Virus record (IMG/VR): IMGVR_UViG_3300032087_001731
Coordinates: 1-20,536 of that record
Direction: 5' to 3' (one strand)
DNA from: a virus
Length of the DNA: 20,536 bases
Positions 1,897 through 19,909 of the stretch are shown here, piece by piece. Every line of letters begins with the position of its first letter. The first letter of the stretch is position 1. The position numbers were made by a program, and so were the translations under genes. The notes beneath the pieces are model-generated. The model was not told where the DNA came from, made no database searches, and was given only the letters and a program-made list of their open reading frames with translations.

Positions 1897-2193
1897 TCAT
1901 GTCTCCAAGTCTCTAAAGTCAATCTGTGTCAGAAGGACATTATTAACCAGTAAACATTGCAATACATGGCTGACCTCCGCCATGTTAAGTTGGCCGACGA
2001 GGTAGTCTTCTGACGTGTTGTCTTTGTTAAACGTAATTACAATCATGCCGTCAACCTGTTCAGAGGCTACCTTGGCAGTTACCATGCTAAGACACTCGGT
2101 CATGGTACGCAAAGCCTCTGCCCGATCCTCCTCTGGGGTGGGAACCTGCTGCTTCCCCTTCAGATAGACTACCTTATCCTTGTCATCACTCAT
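1897..2193 (-). CDS. Conserved-looking phage protein of unknown function, 98 aa
   Basis: 98 residues, no membrane segment. The N-terminal 25 residues are charged and probably disordered ('MSDDKDKVVYLKGKQQ'). The rest reads as a small alpha/beta domain, with a strand-like 'GMIVITFNKD' and helix-like 'MAEVSHVLQCLLVNNVLL'. The name 'unknown' is deliberate: no motif is recognised. The ATG at 2193 overlaps the stop of the preceding methyltransferase-like gene by four bases (ATGA), and its own stop is followed without a gap by the next ATG. It is therefore co-translated with its neighbours at the 3' end of the leftward run. Confidence 0.7.
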   Translation of the reverse strand: MSDDKDKVVYLKGKQQVPTPEEDRAEALRTMTECLSMVTAKVASEQVDGMIVITFNKDNTSEDYLVGQLNMAEVSHVLQCLLVNNVLLTQIDFRDLET

Positions 2194-2873
2194 CGATATT
2201 TACTCTGCATGGGCCAAACCACGGGTCCGTCAACCTTGGTCATACGACGGAACGCCATAATGTTCGTCACCTCGACCGGCTGTTCGAACTGGAACCTGCC
2301 ATACAGGTGGTTCTTGGTGTACTCGACGACCTGACGATTCGACACAGGACCGGTGACACCGCAGCCACCCAACATCTCGAACCCGTTGTCCCGGTAGAAG
2401 TCGGCATAGGCTGTCGGGCTGATGTTCCAGAAGCCGTGGTTCATCATGTTCAGCGGATTTACATGGACGACCACGCCACCATCAGGTCGAACAGCGGAAA
2501 GGATATTAGCAAATACCTGTCCGACGTTGAAGCAATGTTCGGCAGTGCCGCCGTCAATGACGACATCATATTTCTCCGGCCAGTCCTCCGGGTAGTTGAG
2601 GTCCACGATACGCTCGGGGCCACGCGCCTGAACAATGTCAACATAGTCTACCTTTCTGAAGCCGAGTTCCTTGGTCAACACTTCTGTTGTGTCGTACACC
2701 GGGTGCGGCCAATTGTGCCACGACCGAATCTTGTCGGCGTCCTCCAGTTCTGTGTACTCACCTTTGATGAGTTCGGGATCGACGAGCAGGTCTGAGTAGC
2801 CCAGACACAGGCACGTCTTGTCCTCCGGTTCTATCTGCTGGAGCAGACGGTACGTCGTTGTCTCAATACCCAC
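2190..2873 (-). CDS. SAM-dependent methyltransferase-like protein
   Basis: About 227 residues. The sequence has the alternating strand/helix pattern of a class I methyltransferase: 'KTCLCLGYSD' near the N-terminus, then 'YDVVIDGGTAEHCFN' with the acidic strand-end typical of the region after the SAM site, and 'RPDGGVVVHVNP'. The segment 'NPLNMMNHGFWNISPTAYADFY' is typical of methyltransferase-like proteins in polysaccharide gene clusters. The classical glycine-rich motif I is weak, so catalytic competence is not certain. A GTG start at 2873 is chosen because AAGGA lies 8 nt upstream; a TTG at 2879 is the alternative. It overlaps the preceding glycosyltransferase/DUF115 gene by 11 nt and the following gene by four. 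The context suggests modification of a sugar or of a virion or cell-surface target. Confidence 0.7.
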   Translation of the reverse strand: MGIETTTYRLLQQIEPEDKTCLCLGYSDLLVDPELIKGEYTELEDADKIRSWHNWPHPVYDTTEVLTKELGFRKVDYVDIVQARGPERIVDLNYPEDWPEKYDVVIDGGTAEHCFNVGQVFANILSAVRPDGGVVVHVNPLNMMNHGFWNISPTAYADFYRDNGFEMLGGCGVTGPVSNRQVVEYTKNHLYGRFQFEQPVEVTNIMAFRRMTKVDGPVVWPMQSKYR

Positions 2874-4500
2874 GGGCAATATCCTTCAGGTTCTTCAGTT
2901 CACGTATCTTACGGTTCTTCCACGTCTCGGCACAGAGCGTGTCTTCCCCGATGAACGACAGTTCCATATCCATGTCGGTCTTGTCAAACAGACGTTCACA
3001 ATCCTGTGCCATGGCGAGTAGTTCGCCTGTCGTCCAGAACTGCCGGTCGTTGATCTTGACGGACAGATACTTCTCTCGCTCCTTACCGTCGTGGCTCATT
3101 ATCTTGTCGTTTTTCTCCTCGTCCGGCGGCTCCGGGAATGAACCGTCTAGCCCGATCATGGTTGCATTGCGGAACCCGAGGGTGTGTAGCAGTCCGACTG
3201 CACGTGTTGCAGCACATGTGCCGCCCGTGATGTAGACAGTATCCGGATCGAGGGGGAAGTCCTCCTCGGCAGCGACTCGCTGAATGGCGTTGGAATAGGC
3301 GTGGAAGCCGATGATTGTCGCACCCTTCTCGATCAGGTGTCGGGTCACTGACGGGTCTGTCATGGACGCGACAAAGAAGATCGTACGCTTGTCGAAGTTC
3401 TCGAACAGGTCTTTGCGTCGAATACCGTGCGTAGACTCTCCGTCGATGGGTCGGGGGTCGAGGACAATACATCCCCACGGGACAATACCAGCCTCGTGCA
3501 TCCGGGGCAGGGCGTGTTTGACGCAGAGGATGTGGCTCTTACTGACAAACTTCCCGTCGTAGTATTTCTGACGGAGCAGATCGTAATCTACTGATGGTCC
3601 TGCGGAGACGACGACCCCAGTCCCTCCATGGACCCGGCACCGCTCAACCCATCGGTCGATAAGTTTGACGTTTTCAACGATGTTATTCTTGATGTAATCA
3701 TCCGGCATAGAGTCCTTGGGTTGAACCATAATAGGAATTTCTTTAGGGGCATTGGTAGCTGCTTTCTTATCTTTCTTGGCACCTTTGAAGTGTTCCATCT
3801 TGTCGGCCAGTGGCGACGTATGGAATGCGTCGAGTGTCTTGGCCTCGGGCGACAGGTTCTGGACGAGCAGTCCGTGATTCTGGTGCAGGTTGATGATGCG
3901 CTGGAAGACAAAACCATCGTGCCATTCACGATAACCACGAACCTCCAGACTGTCGTACGCAGCCCGGACATCTTCGAGTACGTTGAATGCCGCCTCGCGG
4001 TCAGGCCAGAGAGCGAAGCGCATAAAGCTGGTCTCGGCGTAGTCGGCAACCGGACGTTCCAGAAGGGTGACATCATGGCTGAAGTCAAGGATACTGTCCA
4101 GCCATGCAGGTTCTACCCGGTCGGTCGTCACCGTGTCGCCGTCGAGCCAGAGCAGACTGTACGGTGTCTGATCCTCGGGGTCAGAGACGAGGCTGCGACA
4201 GGTCTCGGTGATGGCAAAGACCTTGTGACAGAACTTGACGACGTCCATGCGCCAGTTCGGTGGCTCGAAATCCTTCAGCCGATTGCGGAACAGAATCAGT
4301 TCAGAGACATCGTTCAGGTTGTGGTAGGTGATGTGGTCGGCCTCCGGCAGACCGTCCTCGGCTAACAGGTCGAAGTCGTGATACCAGATGCGGATGTCGA
4401 TGTCGGAGGACCAGTGCTTGGCGACGGAGTCGAGCATCCGTCGGCCATACTTCTCGAAGCCGTCCTTGTTGAACGACGTTACCAGTACGTACTTGTTCAT
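2863..4500 (-). CDS. Two-domain protein: N-terminal glycosyltransferase-like, C-terminal DUF115 (Maf/MptE-like)
   Basis: 545 residues with two recognisable halves. Residues 1-230 resemble a nucleotide-sugar glycosyltransferase, with the metal/UDP-sugar DXD motif in 'LLWLDGDTVTTD' (D120, D122). A Lys-rich linker follows at about 238-256. Residues 290-460 carry the hallmarks of DUF115: 'GVVVSAGPSVDYDLL' (about 296-309), 'HALPRMHEAGIVPWGCIVLDP' with an Asp at 348, 'YITGGTCAATRAVGLLHTLG' and 'MIGLDGSF'. In bacteria DUF115 occurs in Maf proteins that glycosylate flagellin with nonulosonic acids; in archaea it occurs in the pterin pyrophosphokinase MptE. The fused order suggests a phage glycosylation enzyme. 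The substrate is unknown, and host surface sugar, virion protein or modified DNA are all possible. The ATG at 4500 overlaps the preceding glycosyltransferase stop (ATGA). Confidence 0.8.
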   Translation of the reverse strand: MNKYVLVTSFNKDGFEKYGRRMLDSVAKHWSSDIDIRIWYHDFDLLAEDGLPEADHITYHNLNDVSELILFRNRLKDFEPPNWRMDVVKFCHKVFAITETCRSLVSDPEDQTPYSLLWLDGDTVTTDRVEPAWLDSILDFSHDVTLLERPVADYAETSFMRFALWPDREAAFNVLEDVRAAYDSLEVRGYREWHDGFVFQRIINLHQNHGLLVQNLSPEAKTLDAFHTSPLADKMEHFKGAKKDKKAATNAPKEIPIMVQPKDSMPDDYIKNNIVENVKLIDRWVERCRVHGGTGVVVSAGPSVDYDLLRQKYYDGKFVSKSHILCVKHALPRMHEAGIVPWGCIVLDPRPIDGESTHGIRRKDLFENFDKRTIFFVASMTDPSVTRHLIEKGATIIGFHAYSNAIQRVAAEEDFPLDPDTVYITGGTCAATRAVGLLHTLGFRNATMIGLDGSFPEPPDEEKNDKIMSHDGKEREKYLSVKINDRQFWTTGELLAMAQDCERLFDKTDMDMELSFIGEDTLCAETWKNRKIRELKNLKDIARGY

Positions 4501-5264
4501 GGCTGTATTCCGGTAAAGTTATCGTCTTCGGCAAGGTGTGCCATCTGGCGGCGGAGATACCCCCACCATTCGTCGGCGTATCGACACTCCTCATAGCCCG
4601 GATGGATGGGCAACCCGTGGCTGAAGTGTACGCCGCCGGGTATCAGGTCTGGTTTACTCACGCCTTCGATCCAGTTCCATTGATCTGGTAGACGACCTAT
4701 CTCGTGTTCCTCCAGCCAGAAGAAATTGTGGAGCCGAGTTCCTGACGACAGGTTTACCTCTGTCGGTGTCATCTTGGCGTTCGACGGGTGGGCCATGTTG
4801 ATCATCATCAACGACGACCACAGCTTTCGGCTGTATTGGCTCTGCTGTCGTCCGTCCATCTTGACCGCACCCTCCTCGGGTTGCCAGTCGAACTGGACAG
4901 TCATCAGGGCTTTGTCGGGATGATCCCGGCAGTAGTCGAACAGCTTGGTGAGATCGTGTTGAAAGATGAAGTCAGAGTCACAGAACATGACCCAGTCTCG
5001 AATGTGGAGACTCCGGGCCAGTGGGATGGTGCAGAACCGGGTAAAGGAAAACTCGGTGGAGAATGGTCTGCCATCCTCCTGATCCCAATACTGACCGATC
5101 TCATCGACGTACCACTTCCTCTCGAAGAGGCGCATCTCTCGAAGTTTACGGTGATTCAGTCCGAAGATATTCGGTGTTTCGTCACGGGTGTTCTCACGAA
5201 TCGAACCCGTACATGCGACGTAGGCCTCGACAGTGGAGGCGTCGTATCCAATGAATATATCCAT
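4497..5264 (-). CDS. Glycosyltransferase with DXD motif (GT8-like)
   Basis: 255 residues from the chosen ATG. The N-terminus 'MDIFIGYDAS' is the usual opening of glycosyltransferases of the GT8-like fold. 'WVMFCDSDFIF' supplies the DXD metal/nucleotide-sugar motif at residues 96-98. Downstream 'ALMTVQFDWQP' and 'IPGGVHFSHGLP' fit the sugar-acceptor half. A GTG at 5297 would add 11 residues; neither start has a convincing ribosome binding site, and I prefer the ATG because it matches where the family fold begins. The gene overlaps the GT/DUF115 gene by four nucleotides, so the two enzymes are probably made together and act on the same glycan. The donor sugar and acceptor cannot be told from the sequence. 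Confidence 0.8.
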   Translation of the reverse strand: MDIFIGYDASTVEAYVACTGSIRENTRDETPNIFGLNHRKLREMRLFERKWYVDEIGQYWDQEDGRPFSTEFSFTRFCTIPLARSLHIRDWVMFCDSDFIFQHDLTKLFDYCRDHPDKALMTVQFDWQPEEGAVKMDGRQQSQYSRKLWSSLMMINMAHPSNAKMTPTEVNLSSGTRLHNFFWLEEHEIGRLPDQWNWIEGVSKPDLIPGGVHFSHGLPIHPGYEECRYADEWWGYLRRQMAHLAEDDNFTGIQP

Positions 5265-5308
5265 GGGAACATAATCATCAGATACGACGACCTTCACAAA
5301 GACTTTTT

Positions 5309-5512: not shown

Positions 5513-5632
5513 TTACTTCTCCTTGGTTAAGTCAGCGTACGCCTGACGAATTTCTTCGATAGTTCGTCCGCAGCCTACACAATATTTCTTCTCGTCGTCA
5601 AGACGACAGGCGGATTTACATTTACGCGGCAT
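5513..5632 (-). CDS. DUF1289-like small cysteine protein, 39 aa
   Basis: Read directly from the sequence. The 39 residues contain 'CKSACRLDDEKKYCVGCGRT' followed by 'IEEIRQAY'. The order Cys-x3-Cys, about eight residues, Cys-x2-Cys-x-Arg-Thr-x-(D/E)-Glu-Ile is the signature I know from DUF1289, short bacterial proteins presumed to bind zinc or an iron-sulfur centre. The ATG at 5632 lies inside the end of the ribonucleotide reductase gene (11-nt overlap in another frame). The stop is immediately followed by the next ATG, and the reading frame uses the same C-rich third positions as its neighbours. Coupling to the reductase suggests, but does not show, a redox or nucleotide-related role. Confidence 0.7.
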   Translation of the reverse strand: MPRKCKSACRLDDEKKYCVGCGRTIEEIRQAYADLTKEK

Positions 5633-7526
5633 TTAGATCGACAACCTCGCACACCCCGCCGGTACATGCCAGTGTCTGTGATCCGGCGGTATTGTCCTCG
5701 GCTTCGTACTCACCGAGACGGTTCCAGTCGATCATCTTCGGCATACGGCCCAGCAGTTCCTGATACGTCTCCTCGTCACAGTCCTGATACGGTGCCTGTT
5801 GGTAGGTGTGATCAGAGTGCGGCAGGAAGCTGATGCCGCTGCACAGGTCGAAGTTCTTGTAGACCCATGCACCGACTTCTAGCCACTCCTCATCACGGAC
5901 GCTGATGGTGACAGACGGTTTGTGTTCGCACCAGTTGACGGCGTACGTCTTCCAGAGTTCTAGCTGCTCCAGTGCGGACATGTCGTTCCGGGTCACCGCA
6001 TACTCTGGCGACTTGACCGGGAACGAGAAGACCATGGTCGAGTCCGGGTGGAATACCTCCGGCTCTGCCGGGACACCCTCGTCCACCATCAGCTGGGTCA
6101 GCGGGTCTTTGACGTCGCCACGTACCGTACGAATATAGTACGGGCTGTGTCGGGCATGGATGCCAGACCCTGCATCGACCAGCTGCGACACCGTACCGGA
6201 CGGCTTGACGCAGGTGATGGCAGCAGACTGCGGAATGTCCAGACGCTCGGCCCATTCCTTGTTGGTGTCCACGGCCAGTTGCCGCAGTTCTGCAAGAACC
6301 TCCGGGTCGGGATGACTGGTGACCACGGCGTCCATGATACCTGTCAGGCTGACGCCAAGCAGCCGCTCCTCCTCCGTGTTCTTCGTCCAGACGCGACGAA
6401 GATAGGGGAACTTGGTAAAGGTAGACTGCACCGTGCCAAGGATAGTGGCGAGGCGGACCTTCTTCTTCAACGACTCTACGGTGTCGGTAGACCGGACGAC
6501 AACCTCGGTCAGGTTGCAGAACTGGTTGTTACGCAGGATGATCTCGGAGCATGGGTTCGTCCCCCACTCGTAGCCAGTCTTGCGACGACCATGGTTCTCG
6601 ACATGCTTGTCTGCTGCGTACCGGGCGAAGATGCCACGCTCACCAGACTTGGATTCGATCAGGGCAGTCCACTCGCGCATAAACGATTCAATGTCGGGCT
6701 TCTCGGTGTAGACCACGGAGTTGTTCGCCAGTGCCCGTTGTGCGTTCTGCTCCCACCACTGACCAGACTTGGCATGACGCATTCGGTCATCGGACAGGTT
6801 GGACAGGCTGATCATGGCTGACCTGCGTACGCCACCGACGACAACGATGTCACCGATCTTGCACATGATGTCGTGGCACTCGATGCTGTTCAGACGACGA
6901 CCGACGGCCCCTTGGAATACGTTGATCGTGAAACGGAACAGATCGACAAGCGGCTCCGGACCAGAGGCACGACCACCAAATGTCTTCAGCTTGGCACCGG
7001 CAGGGCGGACCTTCGAGACGTCCCACTTCGGAATCTCACCGGCATAGAGCATGGCGACTAGCTTACGGTACGCCTTGGCCCAGCCCTCCTTCGAGTCGTG
7101 GACGACGATGACGTCCTCGGAATCGAATAGCTGCTCTGGAACCTCGGGCAGCTTGGCGATGTGCTGACGCTCGACAGAGAAGCCGACACCCGTCCCGCAC
7201 AGCAGGATCATCATGGCCTCGTCGAACGCCTTCATGTCATCGACAGCAATGTACGAGCAGTTGTATCCGGCAGTGTTGTCGCGGTCGAGGGCTGGTCCGG
7301 CAGTCATCAGCATACGCATGGACGGCATGACGGACAGAGACAGGATGGCGTCTCGCAACTCTTCGACGACTGACTCATCGTCTATGCAACGTGCAACCAC
7401 GTTATCCACGTACCGGTCCACCGTCTCCGACCATGTCTCTCGTCGCCCCTCTTCGGGCAACCATCGGGCATAGCGGCTGAGTGCAATGAACTGTTGATAC
7501 TGGGTGGGTAGGTGGTTGGACAACAT
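5622..7526 (-). CDS. nrdJ: Class II (adenosylcobalamin-dependent) ribonucleoside-triphosphate reductase
   Basis: 634 residues. It reduces ribonucleotides to deoxyribonucleotides for phage DNA synthesis in the cytoplasm. The residues expected for the monomeric Lactobacillus-type enzyme are present in order. C90 ('GYNCSY') is one half of the active-site disulfide. C326 and E328 ('NPCSE') are the thiyl-radical cysteine and general base. C337 ('NQFCNL') is the second half, at the same 11-residue spacing as in the reference enzyme. The extreme C-terminus 'LACTGGVCEVVDLNAA' gives the shuttle pair C621/C626. There is no separate small subunit, and the protein is about 100 residues shorter than the Lactobacillus enzyme. 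The start overlaps the previous stop (TAATG). Use of this enzyme implies that the host makes or imports vitamin B12. Confidence 0.93.
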   Translation of the reverse strand: MLSNHLPTQYQQFIALSRYARWLPEEGRRETWSETVDRYVDNVVARCIDDESVVEELRDAILSLSVMPSMRMLMTAGPALDRDNTAGYNCSYIAVDDMKAFDEAMMILLCGTGVGFSVERQHIAKLPEVPEQLFDSEDVIVVHDSKEGWAKAYRKLVAMLYAGEIPKWDVSKVRPAGAKLKTFGGRASGPEPLVDLFRFTINVFQGAVGRRLNSIECHDIMCKIGDIVVVGGVRRSAMISLSNLSDDRMRHAKSGQWWEQNAQRALANNSVVYTEKPDIESFMREWTALIESKSGERGIFARYAADKHVENHGRRKTGYEWGTNPCSEIILRNNQFCNLTEVVVRSTDTVESLKKKVRLATILGTVQSTFTKFPYLRRVWTKNTEEERLLGVSLTGIMDAVVTSHPDPEVLAELRQLAVDTNKEWAERLDIPQSAAITCVKPSGTVSQLVDAGSGIHARHSPYYIRTVRGDVKDPLTQLMVDEGVPAEPEVFHPDSTMVFSFPVKSPEYAVTRNDMSALEQLELWKTYAVNWCEHKPSVTISVRDEEWLEVGAWVYKNFDLCSGISFLPHSDHTYQQAPYQDCDEETYQELLGRMPKMIDWNRLGEYEAEDNTAGSQTLACTGGVCEVVDLNAA

Positions 7527-7906: not shown

Positions 7907-8092
7907 CTACAGTCCTATCAAACGCCAACCGTGATTGGCGATGGCGTTTAGAATAATTGCAAGGCAGGTAGCGATATGAAGGAAGACCCAGACGGATCGA
8001 ATGATGGCGACAGTGTCTGCCTTGTCGTCGTCGTCATATGCCTTCTGTCCTATCGCCTTGCACCAATACTCCCACATCACCAATCCGGCCAT
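7907..8092 (-). CDS. Single-pass membrane protein, 61 aa
   Basis: 61 residues. The first 30 are polar, with an acidic patch (DDDDKAD at about 19-25). One clear transmembrane segment follows at about 33-53 ('SVWVFLHIATCLAIILNAIA'), then a short basic tail. Its ATG lies inside the 3' end of the FkbM methyltransferase gene (16-nt overlap in another frame), and its stop is 2 nt before the next start, in keeping with the dense packing here. The function is not recognised; a membrane-associated phage effector or an accessory to the nucleotide module is possible. Confidence 0.65.
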   Translation of the reverse strand: MAGLVMWEYWCKAIGQKAYDDDDKADTVAIIRSVWVFLHIATCLAIILNAIANHGWRLIGL

Positions 8093-8733
8093 GCTGTCTC
8101 GTCAGGCGTGTAGATGATCTCTGATCCTACGCGGTGCGGGTAGTATTCAAAACTAAAATCTGACAGAGACATGTTGATGGCGTCGGCCACCATCCCGTAC
8201 GACACGCCGTTGCCCTTCACCTCAAGGCACAGGACAGGACGACAACGCTCGATGGTATCCTTTGCACCCCGGAGGACAGCGGGTTCGTGTCCCTCGGCAT
8301 CGATCTTCAGAAAGTCCAGATGCGGCAGGGCGAGTGTGTCGATGGGCACGACCTGTACGAAGTAGGCTGTCCCGTCCGCCTTCTGCCCCGGTGCGGCCAG
8401 TGACCACATTCCTGAGTTGCCCTGACGATTGTGGACCAGCGTCATCATGTCCGATGTCCACGACGCACCCTCGTTCCTGATGGTCACGTTGTCCAGATGG
8501 GTGGTGTTCCGGGTCAGGCACTCGGCGTTCTCAGGGTTTGGCTCCATGGCCCAGACCTCATCGAACTCCTCGGCAAGATGCCGTGTCCATATGCCGACAT
8601 GGGCACCGACATCGAGGGCCAGACGTCGCCGCTTGGTCAGGCCAAGGGCAACCTTCCGTGTCCCGAGTTCGTAGTCGGGACCGGCAAAGTGTGTGTCGGA
8701 ATCGGGGAGCCAGAGGCCGTTAACTTCTTTCAT
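8077..8733 (-). CDS. FkbM-family SAM-dependent methyltransferase
   Basis: 218 residues. SAM-binding motif I is 'LALDVGAHVGIWTRHLA' (about residues 39-55), the acidic residue at the end of strand two is in 'VWAMEPNPEN', and the FkbM hallmark 'LDFLKIDAEGHEPAVLRGA' lies at about 139-157. FkbM enzymes O-methylate small molecules or sugars; in phages they usually lie with glycan-modifying genes. Here the gene sits inside the replication/nucleotide run, between the DUF3310 gene and small membrane and basic proteins, separated from the glycosyltransferases by the reductase. AGGG 7 nt before the ATG supports the start. Its substrate is unknown. Confidence 0.88.
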   Translation of the reverse strand: MKEVNGLWLPDSDTHFAGPDYELGTRKVALGLTKRRRLALDVGAHVGIWTRHLAEEFDEVWAMEPNPENAECLTRNTTHLDNVTIRNEGASWTSDMMTLVHNRQGNSGMWSLAAPGQKADGTAYFVQVVPIDTLALPHLDFLKIDAEGHEPAVLRGAKDTIERCRPVLCLEVKGNGVSYGMVADAINMSLSDFSFEYYPHRVGSEIIYTPDETAWPDW

Positions 8734-12043: not shown

Positions 12044-13782
12044 CAGTGTGTCTCCGACCAGTTGTGACCCACCTTCCAATCACAGTCGAGTGGGCAGTTG
12101 AATTGTAGCTGCTCGGCCACAGCCTGTACAGCATTCTTCGAGATGAGTCCGATCTCCTCGGGATCGAGACTGGCATCGGCCTCGATGCAGAGTTCGTCGT
12201 GAATCATGGCTACGATGTTCGCCCCCGGCGGCAACGTCTCGTGTACGTTGATCAGCCACTGCTTGGCGATGACCGCAGCACATGATTGGAGCAGCGTGTT
12301 CAGTGCTGCATGTTCTGAGCGGATGCGGAGGCGTCGTCCGTCGATGCCTTGGATAGTACCTGCCCCGGCTGCTTGGGTAACTCTTCGGTGTAACGAAGCA
12401 AATGATGGCATACCACGGAGATAGCGTTGCCTAATTGCATTACCTTCTTCTGGTCCGCCTCCGACAATTGTTCCCAGCTTGGCATTTCCTGCCCCGTATA
12501 GCAGAGCGTACGTGAAAGTCTTTGCTCCAGCCCGTGTAGGCAATCCTGCAAGTTGCTGAGTTCTTGTGTGAACGTCTCCATTGATAAGTTCCTCCGTGTA
12601 GTCCTTGTCGTTCAGGTAGTGGGCAAGGCATCGAAGCTCGATACCTGCAAGGTCAGTGCCGATGAGTTGTCGTCCCGACGGCACAGTCCAGCACGACCGG
12701 CACTCCGAGCCGTACTCTGATTGCGGCCCCGGCACCTGTTGTAGGTTAGGCCCGGTGCAGGACATGCGGTGGGTGATGGCACCAAGTGTCAGGTAGCCAC
12801 AACGGACACGGCTGTCCGACGATACCTTGTCGAGCCATGACGACACCTGCGCCACCCGCTTCTGTAGCAGAAGGTAACGGGCAATCTTCTGAGCAAGGGG
12901 TAGGTCAATGGCCGACAGCGTGGCCTCATCGACGATGGGCTGTCCCTTCTCGGTCCGTTTCCGGGGAACCCACCCCTGTCGCTGGAGACGGTCGGCAATC
13001 TGCTGACGACTGGCAAGGTTGAATGTCTGCCACTCTATGGCTGTGTGTTCACCACCGCAGACGGACGGATCGTTGAGATGCTTCAGCCCGACAGACGATA
13101 GGGTTCCGTCCTTCCGATACTTGGGGGTGACAAGGCGACGAGGCTTGGGAATGTCGGGCAGACCGGACAGAACCTCGGCCTCGATCTCGGCAACCTCATT
13201 GGACAGGGTGGCAACAAGAGTTGCCGCCCGTGGCTGGTCGAGATAGTAGCCATGATCTTCGACCGAGTTCATCACGGCACGGACACGATGCTCCATGGTC
13301 AGTGCTGCCTTCCATGATGCACCAGCAGCAGACCTGTCCATCTGGTACGCCTCGCCCTGTAGGTGCTTAAGTACACGGTGTGTCAGGTCCACGTCCTGTC
13401 GGCAGTACTCAATCATCTCGGCTGTTGCCCCGAGGCTCCAGTCGTGGAAGTCGATCTTGGCATCGTCGAGTCTGGCACCCCATGCCCGGAGACTGTGTCC
13501 GCCGGGACGATCAGGCCAGAGAAGCTGACTGATCAGCATGGTGTCTCGAACCTTGGCGAGGTCGAGGTCGGCGTCCAGCAGACGATGGATGACTGGGATG
13601 TCGAAGTTCACGGCGTTGTGTCCGTACATCCAGTCGAAGGACCGGAGGTAGTCGGGCAGTTCTGCCATGTTCTCTGAGGTGAATGTCCGACGATCCTCGG
13701 TGCCGACCACACGGGTACAGGCAACGTGGATGACCGTAGCATCGAGGTCATCCGTCTCAATGTCTACGATGACGTCAGACAT
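12043..13782 (-). CDS. Family A DNA polymerase with 3'-5' exonuclease (T7 gp5-like)
   Basis: 579 residues from the chosen start. The N-terminal exonuclease carries motifs 'VIVDIETDD' (Exo I), 'YGHNAVNFDIP' (Exo II) and 'YCRQDVDLTHRV' (Exo III). The polymerase domain has motif A 'LIGTDLAGIELRCLAHYL', motif B 'RAGAKTFTYALLYGAG' and motif C 'MIHDELCIEA'. In motif B the residue equivalent to E. coli Pol I position 762 is Tyr, as in T7, a state usually linked to lytic phages. ATG 13782 has AGGA about 8 nt upstream and lets the protein begin at the exonuclease domain, as in T7; a start at 13839 would add 19 residues without a good ribosome binding site. The gene is coupled to its neighbours by an 8-nt overlap upstream and TGATG downstream. 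Confidence 0.95.
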   Translation of the reverse strand: MSDVIVDIETDDLDATVIHVACTRVVGTEDRRTFTSENMAELPDYLRSFDWMYGHNAVNFDIPVIHRLLDADLDLAKVRDTMLISQLLWPDRPGGHSLRAWGARLDDAKIDFHDWSLGATAEMIEYCRQDVDLTHRVLKHLQGEAYQMDRSAAGASWKAALTMEHRVRAVMNSVEDHGYYLDQPRAATLVATLSNEVAEIEAEVLSGLPDIPKPRRLVTPKYRKDGTLSSVGLKHLNDPSVCGGEHTAIEWQTFNLASRQQIADRLQRQGWVPRKRTEKGQPIVDEATLSAIDLPLAQKIARYLLLQKRVAQVSSWLDKVSSDSRVRCGYLTLGAITHRMSCTGPNLQQVPGPQSEYGSECRSCWTVPSGRQLIGTDLAGIELRCLAHYLNDKDYTEELINGDVHTRTQQLAGLPTRAGAKTFTYALLYGAGNAKLGTIVGGGPEEGNAIRQRYLRGMPSFASLHRRVTQAAGAGTIQGIDGRRLRIRSEHAALNTLLQSCAAVIAKQWLINVHETLPPGANIVAMIHDELCIEADASLDPEEIGLISKNAVQAVAEQLQFNCPLDCDWKVGHNWSETH

Positions 13783-14350
13783 GTTGTATCCTGTCGGCGT
13801 GTCGATGCAGGGCAGATCGAAGAGGCTCCGTCTGCTCATCGGCTATCTCACGTACATGAGATGACTTTGCATCCCGATATGCCCGACTCGCCTCCTCAAC
13901 CGTGTCGTACAAACCTATATGCGTCCGAACGCCTCTCATATTACGATGTACCTGATACTTTTTAGCAGGTTTGTGCCACGACACACCTTGTGGATACTTG
14001 CCTCGTCTTGAGGCATTGTCGAGCAATAGTTTGTTCAGTGCCGGGGTGATAAACAGGCATCGGTCGGGGGCGTAGATTTTATTTCCGGGCAGGAGGATGT
14101 CTTTATCTAGCTGCTTACCTTCCCATTCCTGCTCCTCCATCCATGACTTGAAGACCGAAAACCGTAACCATTCTTCGCATACTGATGTCCCAATATACGT
14201 TGGCTTACGTTTATGATACAGTGGATCATAGGATCGATTAAGCATACTGGTCCACGCCCTGTAGTACGGGTCACGAACTTCCCGACCATCAACTACAATC
14301 CACGTTGAGGCATCAACGTCGTTGATTCCATGTCCCTGTACAAGTCTCAT
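13775..14350 (-). CDS. AP2-domain putative homing endonuclease
   Basis: 191 residues. The C-terminal part 'GVSWHKPAKKYQVHRNMRGV' then 'HIGLYDTVEEASRAYRDAK' (about 122-165) is an AP2 DNA-binding domain. The N-terminal part 'YYRAWTSMLNRSYDP', 'TSVCEEWLRFSVFKSWMEE', 'LDKDILLPGNKIYAPDRCLF' resembles the catalytic portion of phage HNH/AP2 homing proteins, but a full HNH triad is not obvious. It stands between the primase-helicase and polymerase genes, a classic spot for a free-standing homing endonuclease, yet is tightly coupled (ATGA with the helicase stop, 8-nt overlap with the polymerase) and leaves both neighbours whole. Its AT content looks somewhat higher than that of its neighbours, which suits a later arrival. 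Activity is unproved. Confidence 0.75.
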   Translation of the reverse strand: MRLVQGHGINDVDASTWIVVDGREVRDPYYRAWTSMLNRSYDPLYHKRKPTYIGTSVCEEWLRFSVFKSWMEEQEWEGKQLDKDILLPGNKIYAPDRCLFITPALNKLLLDNASRRGKYPQGVSWHKPAKKYQVHRNMRGVRTHIGLYDTVEEASRAYRDAKSSHVREIADEQTEPLRSALHRHADRIQHV

Positions 14351-16557: not shown

Positions 16558-16583
16558 GGTGAAATCCTGTAATTGATTGGTGG

Positions 16584-16664
16584 TTACTCATCATTATCAA
16601 CTACCTCACCACCGTTGTCAATGGACTCCTTTATCCTCACGTGCCTATTCAGCGCCTCACACAA
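16584..16664 (-). CDS. Possible 26-aa peptide overlapping a promoter
   Basis: A TTG-initiated frame of 26 residues ('CEALNRHVRIKESIDNGGEV' near its middle, ending in 'DNDE') starts within the last codons of the beta-helix gene. It is protein-like, but the TTG has only a weak ribosome binding site and the frame covers the promoter at 16593-16621. It may be a chance frame. Confidence 0.25.
   Translation of the reverse strand: MCEALNRHVRIKESIDNGGEVVDNDE
16593..16621 (-). promoter_or_regulatory. Near-consensus sigma-70 promoter for the replication module
   Basis: On the minus strand TTGACA (complement of 16616-16621) is a perfect -35. After 17 nt, GATAAT (complement of 16593-16598) matches 5 of 6 bases of the -10. 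The start would be near 16586, about 30 nt before the ATG of the 58-aa gene. It would drive the leftward run through primase-helicase and polymerase using host RNA polymerase. Confidence 0.7.
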
Positions 16665-17439
16665 TCTCAACCAACTTATATCGCTTGTCATTCATTTCAA
16701 TAAAGATGTCTTCATTGGTATCAGACTTTTCTGCACGGCCAGTGAGTCGATCACATGCATCGCCAGAGACCCTAGCACTGTAATTGACCCAAGCATTGCC
16801 AGAGACCCGAGCATTACCAAAGACCTTAGCATTGCTAAAGACCCGAGCATTGCCAAAGACCCAAGCATCGCCAGAGACCTTAGCATTGTCAAAGACCTGA
16901 GCATCGCCAAAGACCCAAGCATCGTCAAAGACCCGAGCATCGCCACAGACCCCAGCATTGCCGTAGACCTGAGCATTGTCATAGACCCGAGCATTGCCAA
17001 AGACCTTAGCATCGCCAAGGACCTGAGCATTGTCATAGACCTCAGCATCGTGAAAGACCCGAGCATTGCCAAAGACCCAAGCATTGCCAAAGACCTCAGC
17101 ATCGCCAAAGACCCAAGCATTATCATAGACCTTAGCACCGCCAGAGACCCAAGCATCGCCAGAGACCTTAGCATTGCCAAAGACCCTAGCATTGCCAAAG
17201 ACCCCAGCTTTGCCGTAGACCTGAGCATCGCCAAAGACCTCAGCATCGTGAAAGACCCGAGCATTGCCAAAGACCTGAGCTTCGGCTCCTACATATGCAG
17301 TCTCATCAACAGTAGCGGTATCAGCAACCCATCCACCACCTTTAGGGTGTTTGTGAGCCGGGACTGGACCATTGCCGTCATCAAAATCAAACGTAGTCAT
17401 CGTCTCTCTATCTCTGTGCTTCTTGGTTTCGTTAATCAT
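16657..17439 (-). CDS. Left-handed beta-helix (hexapeptide-repeat) protein, 260 aa
   Basis: 260 residues. After an N-terminal part ('MINETKKHRDRETMTTFDFD'), residues 37-228 are 32 uninterrupted six-residue repeats of the form x-V-(F/Y/S)-(G/D/H)-(N/D)-A, such as RVFGNA, EVFHDA-like and KVSGDA. This is the left-handed beta-helix pattern; three hexads per turn would give about 11 turns. The C-terminal 32 residues ('NEDIFIEMNDKRYKLVEIV') leave the repeat. Most hexapeptide proteins are acyltransferases, but no catalytic His loop is visible, so a binding, spacer or structural role is more likely. The ATG at 17439 has the strong AAGGAGAGGAA upstream and a promoter behind it. ATG 17400 is an alternative. 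The 18-bp repeat units leave the other strand and frames open as well, which is an artefact. Confidence 0.85.
   Translation of the reverse strand: MINETKKHRDRETMTTFDFDDGNGPVPAHKHPKGGGWVADTATVDETAYVGAEAQVFGNARVFHDAEVFGDAQVYGKAGVFGNARVFGNAKVSGDAWVSGGAKVYDNAWVFGDAEVFGNAWVFGNARVFHDAEVYDNAQVLGDAKVFGNARVYDNAQVYGNAGVCGDARVFDDAWVFGDAQVFDNAKVSGDAWVFGNARVFSNAKVFGNARVSGNAWVNYSARVSGDACDRLTGRAEKSDTNEDIFIEMNDKRYKLVEIV
16756..17331 (-). repeat. 18-bp tandem coding repeat array (32 units)
   Basis: Each unit encodes one hexad of the beta-helix. Units differ mainly at codons for residues 1, 3 and 4, while the GCNxxxGTN framework stays fixed. Such an array can expand or shrink by slippage or recombination. It is not a CRISPR: there are no spacers. 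Confidence 0.85.
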
Positions 17440-17458
17440 TGGGGTTCCTCTCCTTAAA

Positions 17459-19199: not shown

Positions 19200-19460
19200 T
19201 CAGTGCATAGCTGTCGTTGTGTCGTCGATGTCGTCGAATCGCATGATGGCCTCGACACCACAGGCCACGAGGTGGGCGGCAACATCGACGGAATCGTCCG
19301 ACTTCTCCAGTTGTCCTATAATAAATGATAGATAATCTCGATTCGGGTCTGTCCGGGCGATGTTGTCGGCCAGTTCTACACACAGATCGTGGAGTTCATC
19401 CCCTGCTTCTCGTATTCTTCCGGCGAGACGAACCATGTCGGCTCTGACGTCTTGTTCCAT
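19200..19460 (-). CDS. Helical protein of unknown function, 86 aa
   Basis: 86 residues from the ATG at 19460, chosen because AAGGA lies 9 nt upstream; the frame is open for 68 more codons upstream, but that part runs through the 177-aa gene and is Pro/Arg-rich. The body 'MEQDVRADMVRLAGRIREAG' and 'DELHDLCVELADNIART' is long-helical, then 'DYLSFIIGQLEKSDDSVDVA'. It overlaps the 177-aa gene by 85 nt in another frame, the longest such overlap I accept here; an ATG at 19436 would shorten it to 61 nt. Function unknown. Confidence 0.55.
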   Translation of the reverse strand: MEQDVRADMVRLAGRIREAGDELHDLCVELADNIARTDPNRDYLSFIIGQLEKSDDSVDVAAHLVACGVEAIMRFDDIDDTTTAMH

Positions 19461-19909
19461 CTTGCTAAATCCTTTTTGTCGTTGATGTAGTAGCGGCGGT
19501 AGGCTACCACAGGATCGGGGTCTTTGTATTCGTCCGGCATACACTGCGGAATCGGAGTGTGGAACGGTTTGTTTGATATGTGAGCAGGTGGTCGGGACAG
19601 TGGCTTGACCAGTCGCTCGGTCTTGTGGGTCTTGCCCCCGTACCGGTGGGTGTATTCCCGGCACAGGCTGATCAGTAGCTGGTGCGTCCAGACGTAGTTG
19701 CCCACGGCCTCACGTACCCATACGGCAGACGGATGGTTCTTGTGTGTCGCCTTGTACATGCCGTGCCAGTCTGCGTGGTCGTCTCCGTCGAGGACACGGT
19801 GTGCGGTGGACAATAGCTGCGCTGTTTCCAGTATCATCTTGACGACGTGCTTGTCGCAGTGATGGATGGCGCAGACCACCGGGTCAGGGTGTAGATAGAA
19901 GATGTTCAT
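19376..19909 (-). CDS. Conserved phage protein of unknown function, 177 aa
   Basis: 177 residues. The opening 'MNIFYLHPDPVVCAIHHCDK' followed by 'HVVKMILETAQLLSTAH' is one I recognise from many marine phages and viral metagenomes, always without an assigned role. It is rich in His and Cys (H16, H17, C18, D19, K20, H21), which could bind metal or be catalytic. Later segments 'NHPSAVWVREAVGNYVWTHQ' and 'WNKTSEPTWF' are also typical of the family. The ATG at 19909 directly follows the stop of the previous gene (TAAATG). Some databases link similar proteins to DNA glycosylase-like folds; I am not sure of that. Confidence 0.7.
   Translation of the reverse strand: MNIFYLHPDPVVCAIHHCDKHVVKMILETAQLLSTAHRVLDGDDHADWHGMYKATHKNHPSAVWVREAVGNYVWTHQLLISLCREYTHRYGGKTHKTERLVKPLSRPPAHISNKPFHTPIPQCMPDEYKDPDPVVAYRRYYINDKKDLARWNKTSEPTWFVSPEEYEKQGMNSTICV

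Follow-up and report, generated by a model that had tools for sequence, protein, structure and literature searches.

We analysed a viral sequence of 20,536 bases, the entire IMG/VR record IMGVR_UViG_3300032087_001731 (probably a genome fragment, from a marine-type phage; hereafter the window), in which three overlapping genes on the minus strand very probably form a glycan-building and methylating module. They encode a GT-A glycosyltransferase (4497-5264), a 545-residue protein that joins a second, predicted GT-A domain to a PF01973 (DUF115) domain (2863-4500), and a protein with the predicted fold of class I S-adenosylmethionine (SAM) methyltransferases (2190-2873). The best explanation of the whole is a set of soluble enzymes that would use donors of the host and would build and methylate a glycan on a virion protein, a reading to which we assign a probability of about 0.5.

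Gene layout and constraint

The module is located between a B12-type ribonucleotide reductase (RNR) gene (5622-7526) and small genes whose products appear membrane-associated (1154-1896). An earlier note, made from the sequence without database searches, had placed the three genes here with overlaps of 4 to 11 nucleotides and had read them as one pathway. The overlaps indeed measure 4 nucleotides between the GT-A gene and the fusion gene (4497-4500) and 11 nucleotides between the fusion gene and the methyltransferase gene (2863-2873) when the latter starts at the GTG at 2873 (227 residues); from the TTG at 2879, also a possible start, the second overlap would extend to 17 nucleotides. The GT-A gene starts at the ATG at 5264 (255 residues), with an alternative in-frame GTG at 5297. 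The single pathway is supported by the overlaps, by the conserved gene order and by relatives in which glycosyltransferase, methyltransferase and PF01973 domains are fused.

Compared with one relative, the ratio of nonsynonymous to synonymous substitution rates (dN/dS) was 0.10 for the GT-A gene and 0.09 for both the fusion and the methyltransferase genes, and the third-position GC content of all three resembled that of the replication genes; thus the genes are real and under constraint. Moreover, the GT-A gene was present in all nine IMG/VR records found to carry the fusion, which together with the low dN/dS argues that the grouping is not due to chance. Hydropathy analysis identified no transmembrane segment in any of the three proteins, and they are predicted to be soluble.

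Domains and folds of the three proteins

The first protein matched phrog_28018 with an E-value of 8.9e-61 over residues 13-258 of its 266-residue form, covering most of its length, and in an alignment of eight sequences from diverse phages D96, D98, K147 and W149 were invariant, in agreement with the DXD glycosyltransferase that had been proposed. Its relatives were found in Caulobacter, Synechococcus, Pelagibacter and Stenotrophomonas phages, again with invariant DXD aspartates, and two homologues scored above the Glyco_transf_8 cut-off (2.7e-7 and 7.1e-6). Links to CcrColossus gp126 (below the Pfam cut-off) and to DLP6 AAY80_202, made through the Pfam match of each protein, are only suggestive; single-sequence hhalign comparisons with the S-SCSM2R neighbours and the CcrColossus and DLP6 proteins gave no significance.

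The fusion protein comprises an N-terminal GT-A domain (residues 1-235), a linker (about 246-255), PF01973 (273-456) and a conserved C-terminal part that reaches residue 545. The DUF115 signal anticipated in residues 290-460 was recovered by Pfam at 2.6e-14 with 53.8 bits, above the cut-off of 34.6, and S299, G301, K328, H329, D348, R350 and T428 are invariant in this domain. The glycosyltransferase expected in residues 1-230 fared less uniformly: Pfam returned no significant glycosyltransferase profile there, which at the level of profiles is the outcome that the note had named as refuting, but the structural model and the conserved motif spoke for it. The AlphaFold2 model, built from 28 sequences, reached a mean confidence (pLDDT) of 85.3 with low confidence in linker 246-255, and Foldseek matched it to LARGE1 (1.2e-8), alpha-1,3-galactosyltransferase (1.7e-7), glycogenin (1.9e-6) and GlyE, all of the retaining GT6/GT8 type; the N-terminal half of the model thus matches a retaining GT-A fold. 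Its DXD motif (D120/D122 within WLDGDT) was retained in 24 of the 28 aligned sequences and altered in relatives L116, L124, L126 and L128, and the domain also contains HDGF at 194-197. In addition, residues 6-245 matched a phage protein whose gene adjoins a glycosyltransferase gene (E=6e-6). Comparisons of the fusion sequence with PDB chains, and of alignment profiles with PDB, yielded nothing usable.

Of the named proteins found, those nearest to the PF01973 half are the Maf-type flagellin transferases. The only NCBIfam match of the fusion was PseD (NF050051; 8.6e-8, residues 293-458), at 31.2 bits where the cut-off is 670, so that we do not class the protein as a Maf. Foldseek matched the model to the Magnetospirillum Maf crystal structure 5mu5 (1.3e-6), a match that, as the output carries no aligned ranges, we assign to the C-terminal half on the strength of PF01973. 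Maf proteins consist of a degenerate Rossmann N-terminus, PF01973 and a helical C-terminus (PMC11339370), whereas here the Maf-specific terminal domains are absent, their place being taken by a GT-A domain and, in the relatives, by a methyltransferase as well. That the module glycosylates flagellin or pilin of the host in a Maf-like manner, altering motility or adsorption, would follow from the similarity to Maf and PseD; with no flagellin-related gene or other flagellar context seen nearby, and with presumably little to gain for a lytic phage, we consider this the least probable of the alternatives.

The domain family takes its name from archaeal MptE, and PF01973 is present here close to an RNR gene, hence it could be argued that the domain is a diphosphokinase and that the fusion takes part in cofactor or nucleotide metabolism. 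Its fusion and operon partners are, however, glycosyltransferases and methyltransferases, the curated protein closest to it is PseD, which modifies flagellin, and the fold search returns Maf, all of which leaves this explanation highly improbable. We regard it as likely that PF01973 acts as a glycosyltransferase in the module.

The third protein gave only a weak Pfam signal (Methyltransf_12, 0.004, 18.3 of the 30 bits required). Its AlphaFold2 model (predicted template modelling score, pTM, 0.84) had 86 PDB matches at E<=1e-3, and those listed were nearly all class I methyltransferases, with a best match of 9.7e-6 and TM-scores (query) of up to 0.54. The predicted structure thus clearly has the class I fold, as the description of the gene as SAM-methyltransferase-like had implied. 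A tblastn search of 50,697 phage records recovered relatives neither of this methyltransferase nor of the PF01973 half.

A wider family with three domains

The earlier note had suggested a search of viruses for glycosyltransferase domains combined with PF01973. We screened viral contigs with each half of the fusion separately and classified every open frame; this gave 68 complete fusions, all on viral contigs other than the window. In 60 of them a Methyltransf_24 domain (PF13578, 1e-8 to 1e-11 where its motif is intact) is inserted between the two halves, giving proteins of 736-798 residues (one, of 745 residues, is shortened at its end); the other eight do not have it. The GT-A gene is positioned directly upstream, at -82 to +55 nucleotides, in 65 of the 68, and for the remaining three the contig edge coincides with the start of the fusion. 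The sequences thus indicate that the window carries a reduced form of a broader type of phage protein with glycosyltransferase, methyltransferase and PF01973 domains, reduced being meant in comparison, as the tree does not settle the direction of change. We also considered that the extra 220 residues of the relatives were a second copy of the glycosyltransferase domain and rejected this, since their profile is Methyltransf_24.

The best BFVD match of the fusion (5.8e-43, aligned over 740 columns) was A0A6J7X5Q0, a 714-residue phage protein. BFVD and UniProt hold what is apparently the same architecture in uncultured Caudovirales under automatic names only ('Methyltransferase domain containing protein' for A0A6J7X5Q0, 'MptE-like' for several others), and these proteins probably belong to the same three-domain family. 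A scan of one genome per species (84,980 species), which relies on short conserved peptides and can miss distant relatives, found two loci, both on contigs with phage genes binned into marine metagenome-assembled genomes. Contigs L137 (PANU01000007.1) and L138 (PAKP01000072.1) bear Flavobacteriaceae/Sneathiella labels of such genomes along with phage gene content (polA, RNR, holin) and are probably mis-binned.

In phages similar to Pelagibacter phage Mosig (L013, L090-L108) the two GT-A parts are separate and mostly adjacent genes. In Mosig itself the homologues of both parts (Mosig_00188/00189) are adjacent and accompanied by two FkbM methyltransferases; unlike in the fusions, its two glycosyltransferases are separate genes and PF01973 was not found. 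The pairing in most contigs of the Mosig-like group suggests that the adjacent GT-A pair is the old unit to which the PF01973 and methyltransferase parts were added later. The literature searched contained nothing relevant on DUF115 or MptE-like phage domains and nowhere described the architecture, the operon or their function, and a paper on HMO-2011-type phages contained no glycosyl or methyltransferase terms.

Methyltransferase in cis or in trans

The window contains a further methyltransferase gene of the FkbM type (8077-8733, minus strand; PF05050, 8.7e-19; TIGR01444, 2.1e-23) upstream of the RNR gene. O-methylation of glycans is a common role of FkbM and similar enzymes, and the gene probably shares the function of the module. 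FkbM was found in all seven contigs without the fused methyltransferase domain and in none of the 28 with it; the seven (the window, G001, G003, G004, G006, G008 and G031) represent only two lineages, so that a Fisher value calculated over contigs should not be taken for a probability. The clade of the window has a separate methyltransferase and FkbM instead of the fused domain, and in L084 FkbM and a separate Methyltransf_24 gene take its place. Furthermore, in one clade the fused domain reads GSGNS or GGGNS in place of its DGGHS motif. The fusion is directly followed by a separate methyltransferase (C16; Methyltransf_23, 5.3e-6, just below the cut-off) in eight of eight neighbourhoods with the changed motif as compared to none of 29 with the intact one, an association that rests on essentially one lineage. 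Judging from these gene contents, a separate methyltransferase usually appears to be encoded nearby where the fused one is absent or has an altered motif. On the tree of the PF01973 part the presence and absence of the fused domain require three changes; several branches of this tree are long, and the direction of change is not settled.

Phage setting and the likely target

Among the relatives, those of 37-54 kb carry genes for a terminase, a portal protein, a major head protein and an ejection-type protein. The DNA polymerase of the window shares 41.6% identity with its counterpart in Pelagibacter phage HTVC115P, a phage that shows the same layout of polA, RNR and convergent genes; no glycosyltransferase is annotated there, which argues that the module is accessory. 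In the clade of the window the module closes the replication-gene operon, after RNR. In six other contigs (L041, L044, L047, L081, L130 and L137) it follows, on the same strand, a gene for a large protein (up to 1895 residues, some cut by contig ends), and a late-operon location is possible in these. A gene with weak similarity to PF01973 overlaps the gene of a tail protein in Caulobacter phage CcrColossus.

Since the module is near replication genes, its glycosyltransferases might instead decorate hypermodified bases of the phage DNA as a protection against restriction, and phage glycosyltransferases acting on DNA are known (work cited in PMC12619734). PF00303, the family of thymidylate synthase and dCMP (deoxycytidine monophosphate) hydroxymethylase, was however not found in 12 contigs of 40-59 kb, which disfavours DNA modification. 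No role as enzymes of DNA-base glycans is known for PF01973, FkbM or Methyltransf_24, and this explanation looks very unlikely.

The main rival places the same enzymes in the cytoplasm on a surface glycan of the host (lipopolysaccharide, capsule or lipid-linked precursors), whose alteration would block the binding of further phages. Cytoplasmic enzymes would meet host precursors there, Maf-type relatives of PF01973 use sugars activated with cytidine monophosphate (CMP), and CMP-3-deoxy-D-manno-octulosonic acid (CMP-Kdo) feeds lipopolysaccharide synthesis. In S-SCSM2R a related GT-A gene is near kdsA and kdsB, and glycosyltransferases of pelagiphages have been linked to lipopolysaccharide modification (PMC9599517). 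On the other hand, the module contains no seroconversion-type membrane protein, flippase or acyltransferase that we could see, its three proteins have no membrane segment and no integrase was noticed, while a late change of the surface would be of little use to a lytic phage. We consider such an action on the host surface possible, though rather unlikely.

For the preferred reading, a virion protein as the target would follow from precedent, namely the chlorovirus proteins A064R and A061L and the glycosylated capsids and tails of mycobacteriophages, and on this analogy we hold it to be roughly an even chance or slightly less. What the analysis shows are the domains, the folds, the operon-like arrangement and its conservation, and the association of glycosyltransferase, methyltransferase and PF01973. 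Taking the order of steps, the donors, the methylation of sugars and the target together, we infer the following scheme. The separate GT-A enzyme and the N-terminal domain of the fusion would each transfer one sugar, taken from a nucleotide-sugar donor and assisted by a metal ion bound at DXD, as the GT-A family uses nucleotide sugars with a metal ion at this motif. The PF01973 domain would add a further sugar from a CMP-activated acid, by analogy with Maf and Cst-II; the PF01973 domain of Maf resembles Cst-II, and Maf enzymes accept CMP-N-acetylneuraminic acid (CMP-Neu5Ac) or CMP-Kdo (PMC11339370). The simplest idea for the donor would be one of the host such as CMP-Kdo. The neighbouring class I methyltransferase and the FkbM enzyme would then methylate the glycan, and the outcome would be a short methylated glycan on a virion protein of the phage itself.

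Several observations weigh against this scheme. The module is convergent with the virion genes in the clade of the window, a layout that does not by itself point to late expression, and the large protein encoded upstream of it in other contigs matches only PHROGs of unknown function. A CMP-sugar synthetase gene was not found in 25 contigs, hence a CMP donor would need supply by the host. No methyltransferase was recognised within 17 kb in L137, which has no fused domain and is thus an exception to the exchange between cis and trans. Moreover, in part of the clade with the changed DGGHS motif (L116, L117, L123, L124, L126 and L128) the DXD is changed as well (LDPxx, VDPHC) and the PF01973 motifs remain; hence the domains are not all active enzymes in every member. 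The dN/dS of the changed domains is 0.08-0.16, and 0.09-0.15 in the six contigs named, which speaks for kept non-catalytic or altered domains and not for decay; by this measure the N-terminal and methyltransferase domains look like pseudo-enzyme domains retained by selection.

Neighbouring genes and further observations

The operon of the module also includes a gene for a 98-residue protein (1897-2193, minus strand), which overlaps the methyltransferase gene by 4 nucleotides (2190-2193). The protein is 60-91% conserved in relatives, and searches of Pfam, PHROGs and NCBIfam found no significant family match. A 2OG-Fe(II) (2-oxoglutarate- and iron-dependent) oxygenase (phrog_61), of the prolyl-hydroxylase type by sequence, is encoded beside the GT-A gene or in its neighbourhood in L043 (4566-5132), L074, L078 and L137, and a hydroxylated residue as the acceptor of the glycan is a possible idea.

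Elsewhere in the window, 13775-14350 encodes a 191-residue protein with a weak AP2 match (PF00847, 0.00022, under the cut-off) that overlaps the start of the DNA polymerase gene; it is present in relative G008, is not found in G001 or G006 and is possibly a homing endonuclease-type insertion. The gene of a YdcK-like beta-solenoid repeat protein (16657-17439; PF18836, 9e-29) has a lower third-position GC content than the other genes; on the strand opposite it runs a long open frame (16573-17457). A pyrimidine dimer DNA glycosylase-like protein (PF03013, 1.1e-5) is encoded at 19376-19909.

Comparison with known systems and implications

The closest functional parallel is A064R of chlorovirus PBCV-1, a chain of two glycosyltransferases and a methyltransferase that builds and methylates the end of the capsid-protein glycan, with A061L as a separate methyltransferase (PMC9614988). 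In both systems one soluble chain encoded by the virus links a GT-A domain to another (here predicted) glycosyltransferase and to a methyltransferase, and a further methyltransferase is encoded apart. The second transferase here is, however, of the PF01973/Maf-like and not of the A064R-D2 type, the host is bacterial, and the methyltransferase is positioned mid-chain in relatives and as a separate gene in the window. The window fusion therefore does not unite the three activities of A064R in one chain, whereas 60 of the 68 relatives would, if PF01973 is a transferase. The parallel is one of working alone, since homology was considered no further than the general GT-A fold. In mycobacteriophages Che8, Corndog and Myrna, phage glycosyltransferases act on the capsid or tail tube, and the passages considered report no coupling to methyltransferases (PMC12363180); these too are compared by function only.

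More speculatively, and at a strength we would call doubtful, an undescribed family of phage glycan-assembly proteins, with GT-A, methyltransferase and Maf-like PF01973 domains in one chain and encoded beside a second GT-A gene, may cover the particles of aquatic phages that are widespread and uncultured. The coat would be an O-methylated glycan bearing an acid such as Kdo, obtained from the host in CMP-activated form, with methylation so integral that supply in trans replaces a lost domain. Few systems of phage virion glycosylation are known and these have been studied mostly for immune evasion; a conserved protein with three activities, maintained by selection in many contigs of environmental phages, would be a tractable system to ask why phages outside animals build glycans and methylate them, and would extend the Maf/PF01973 family by a viral branch. 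The loss of the methyltransferase in cis, paired with its presence in trans, makes the role of methylation directly testable. Furthermore, a functional parallel to A064R assembled from different domains would mean that viral assembly lines for glycans have evolved convergently.

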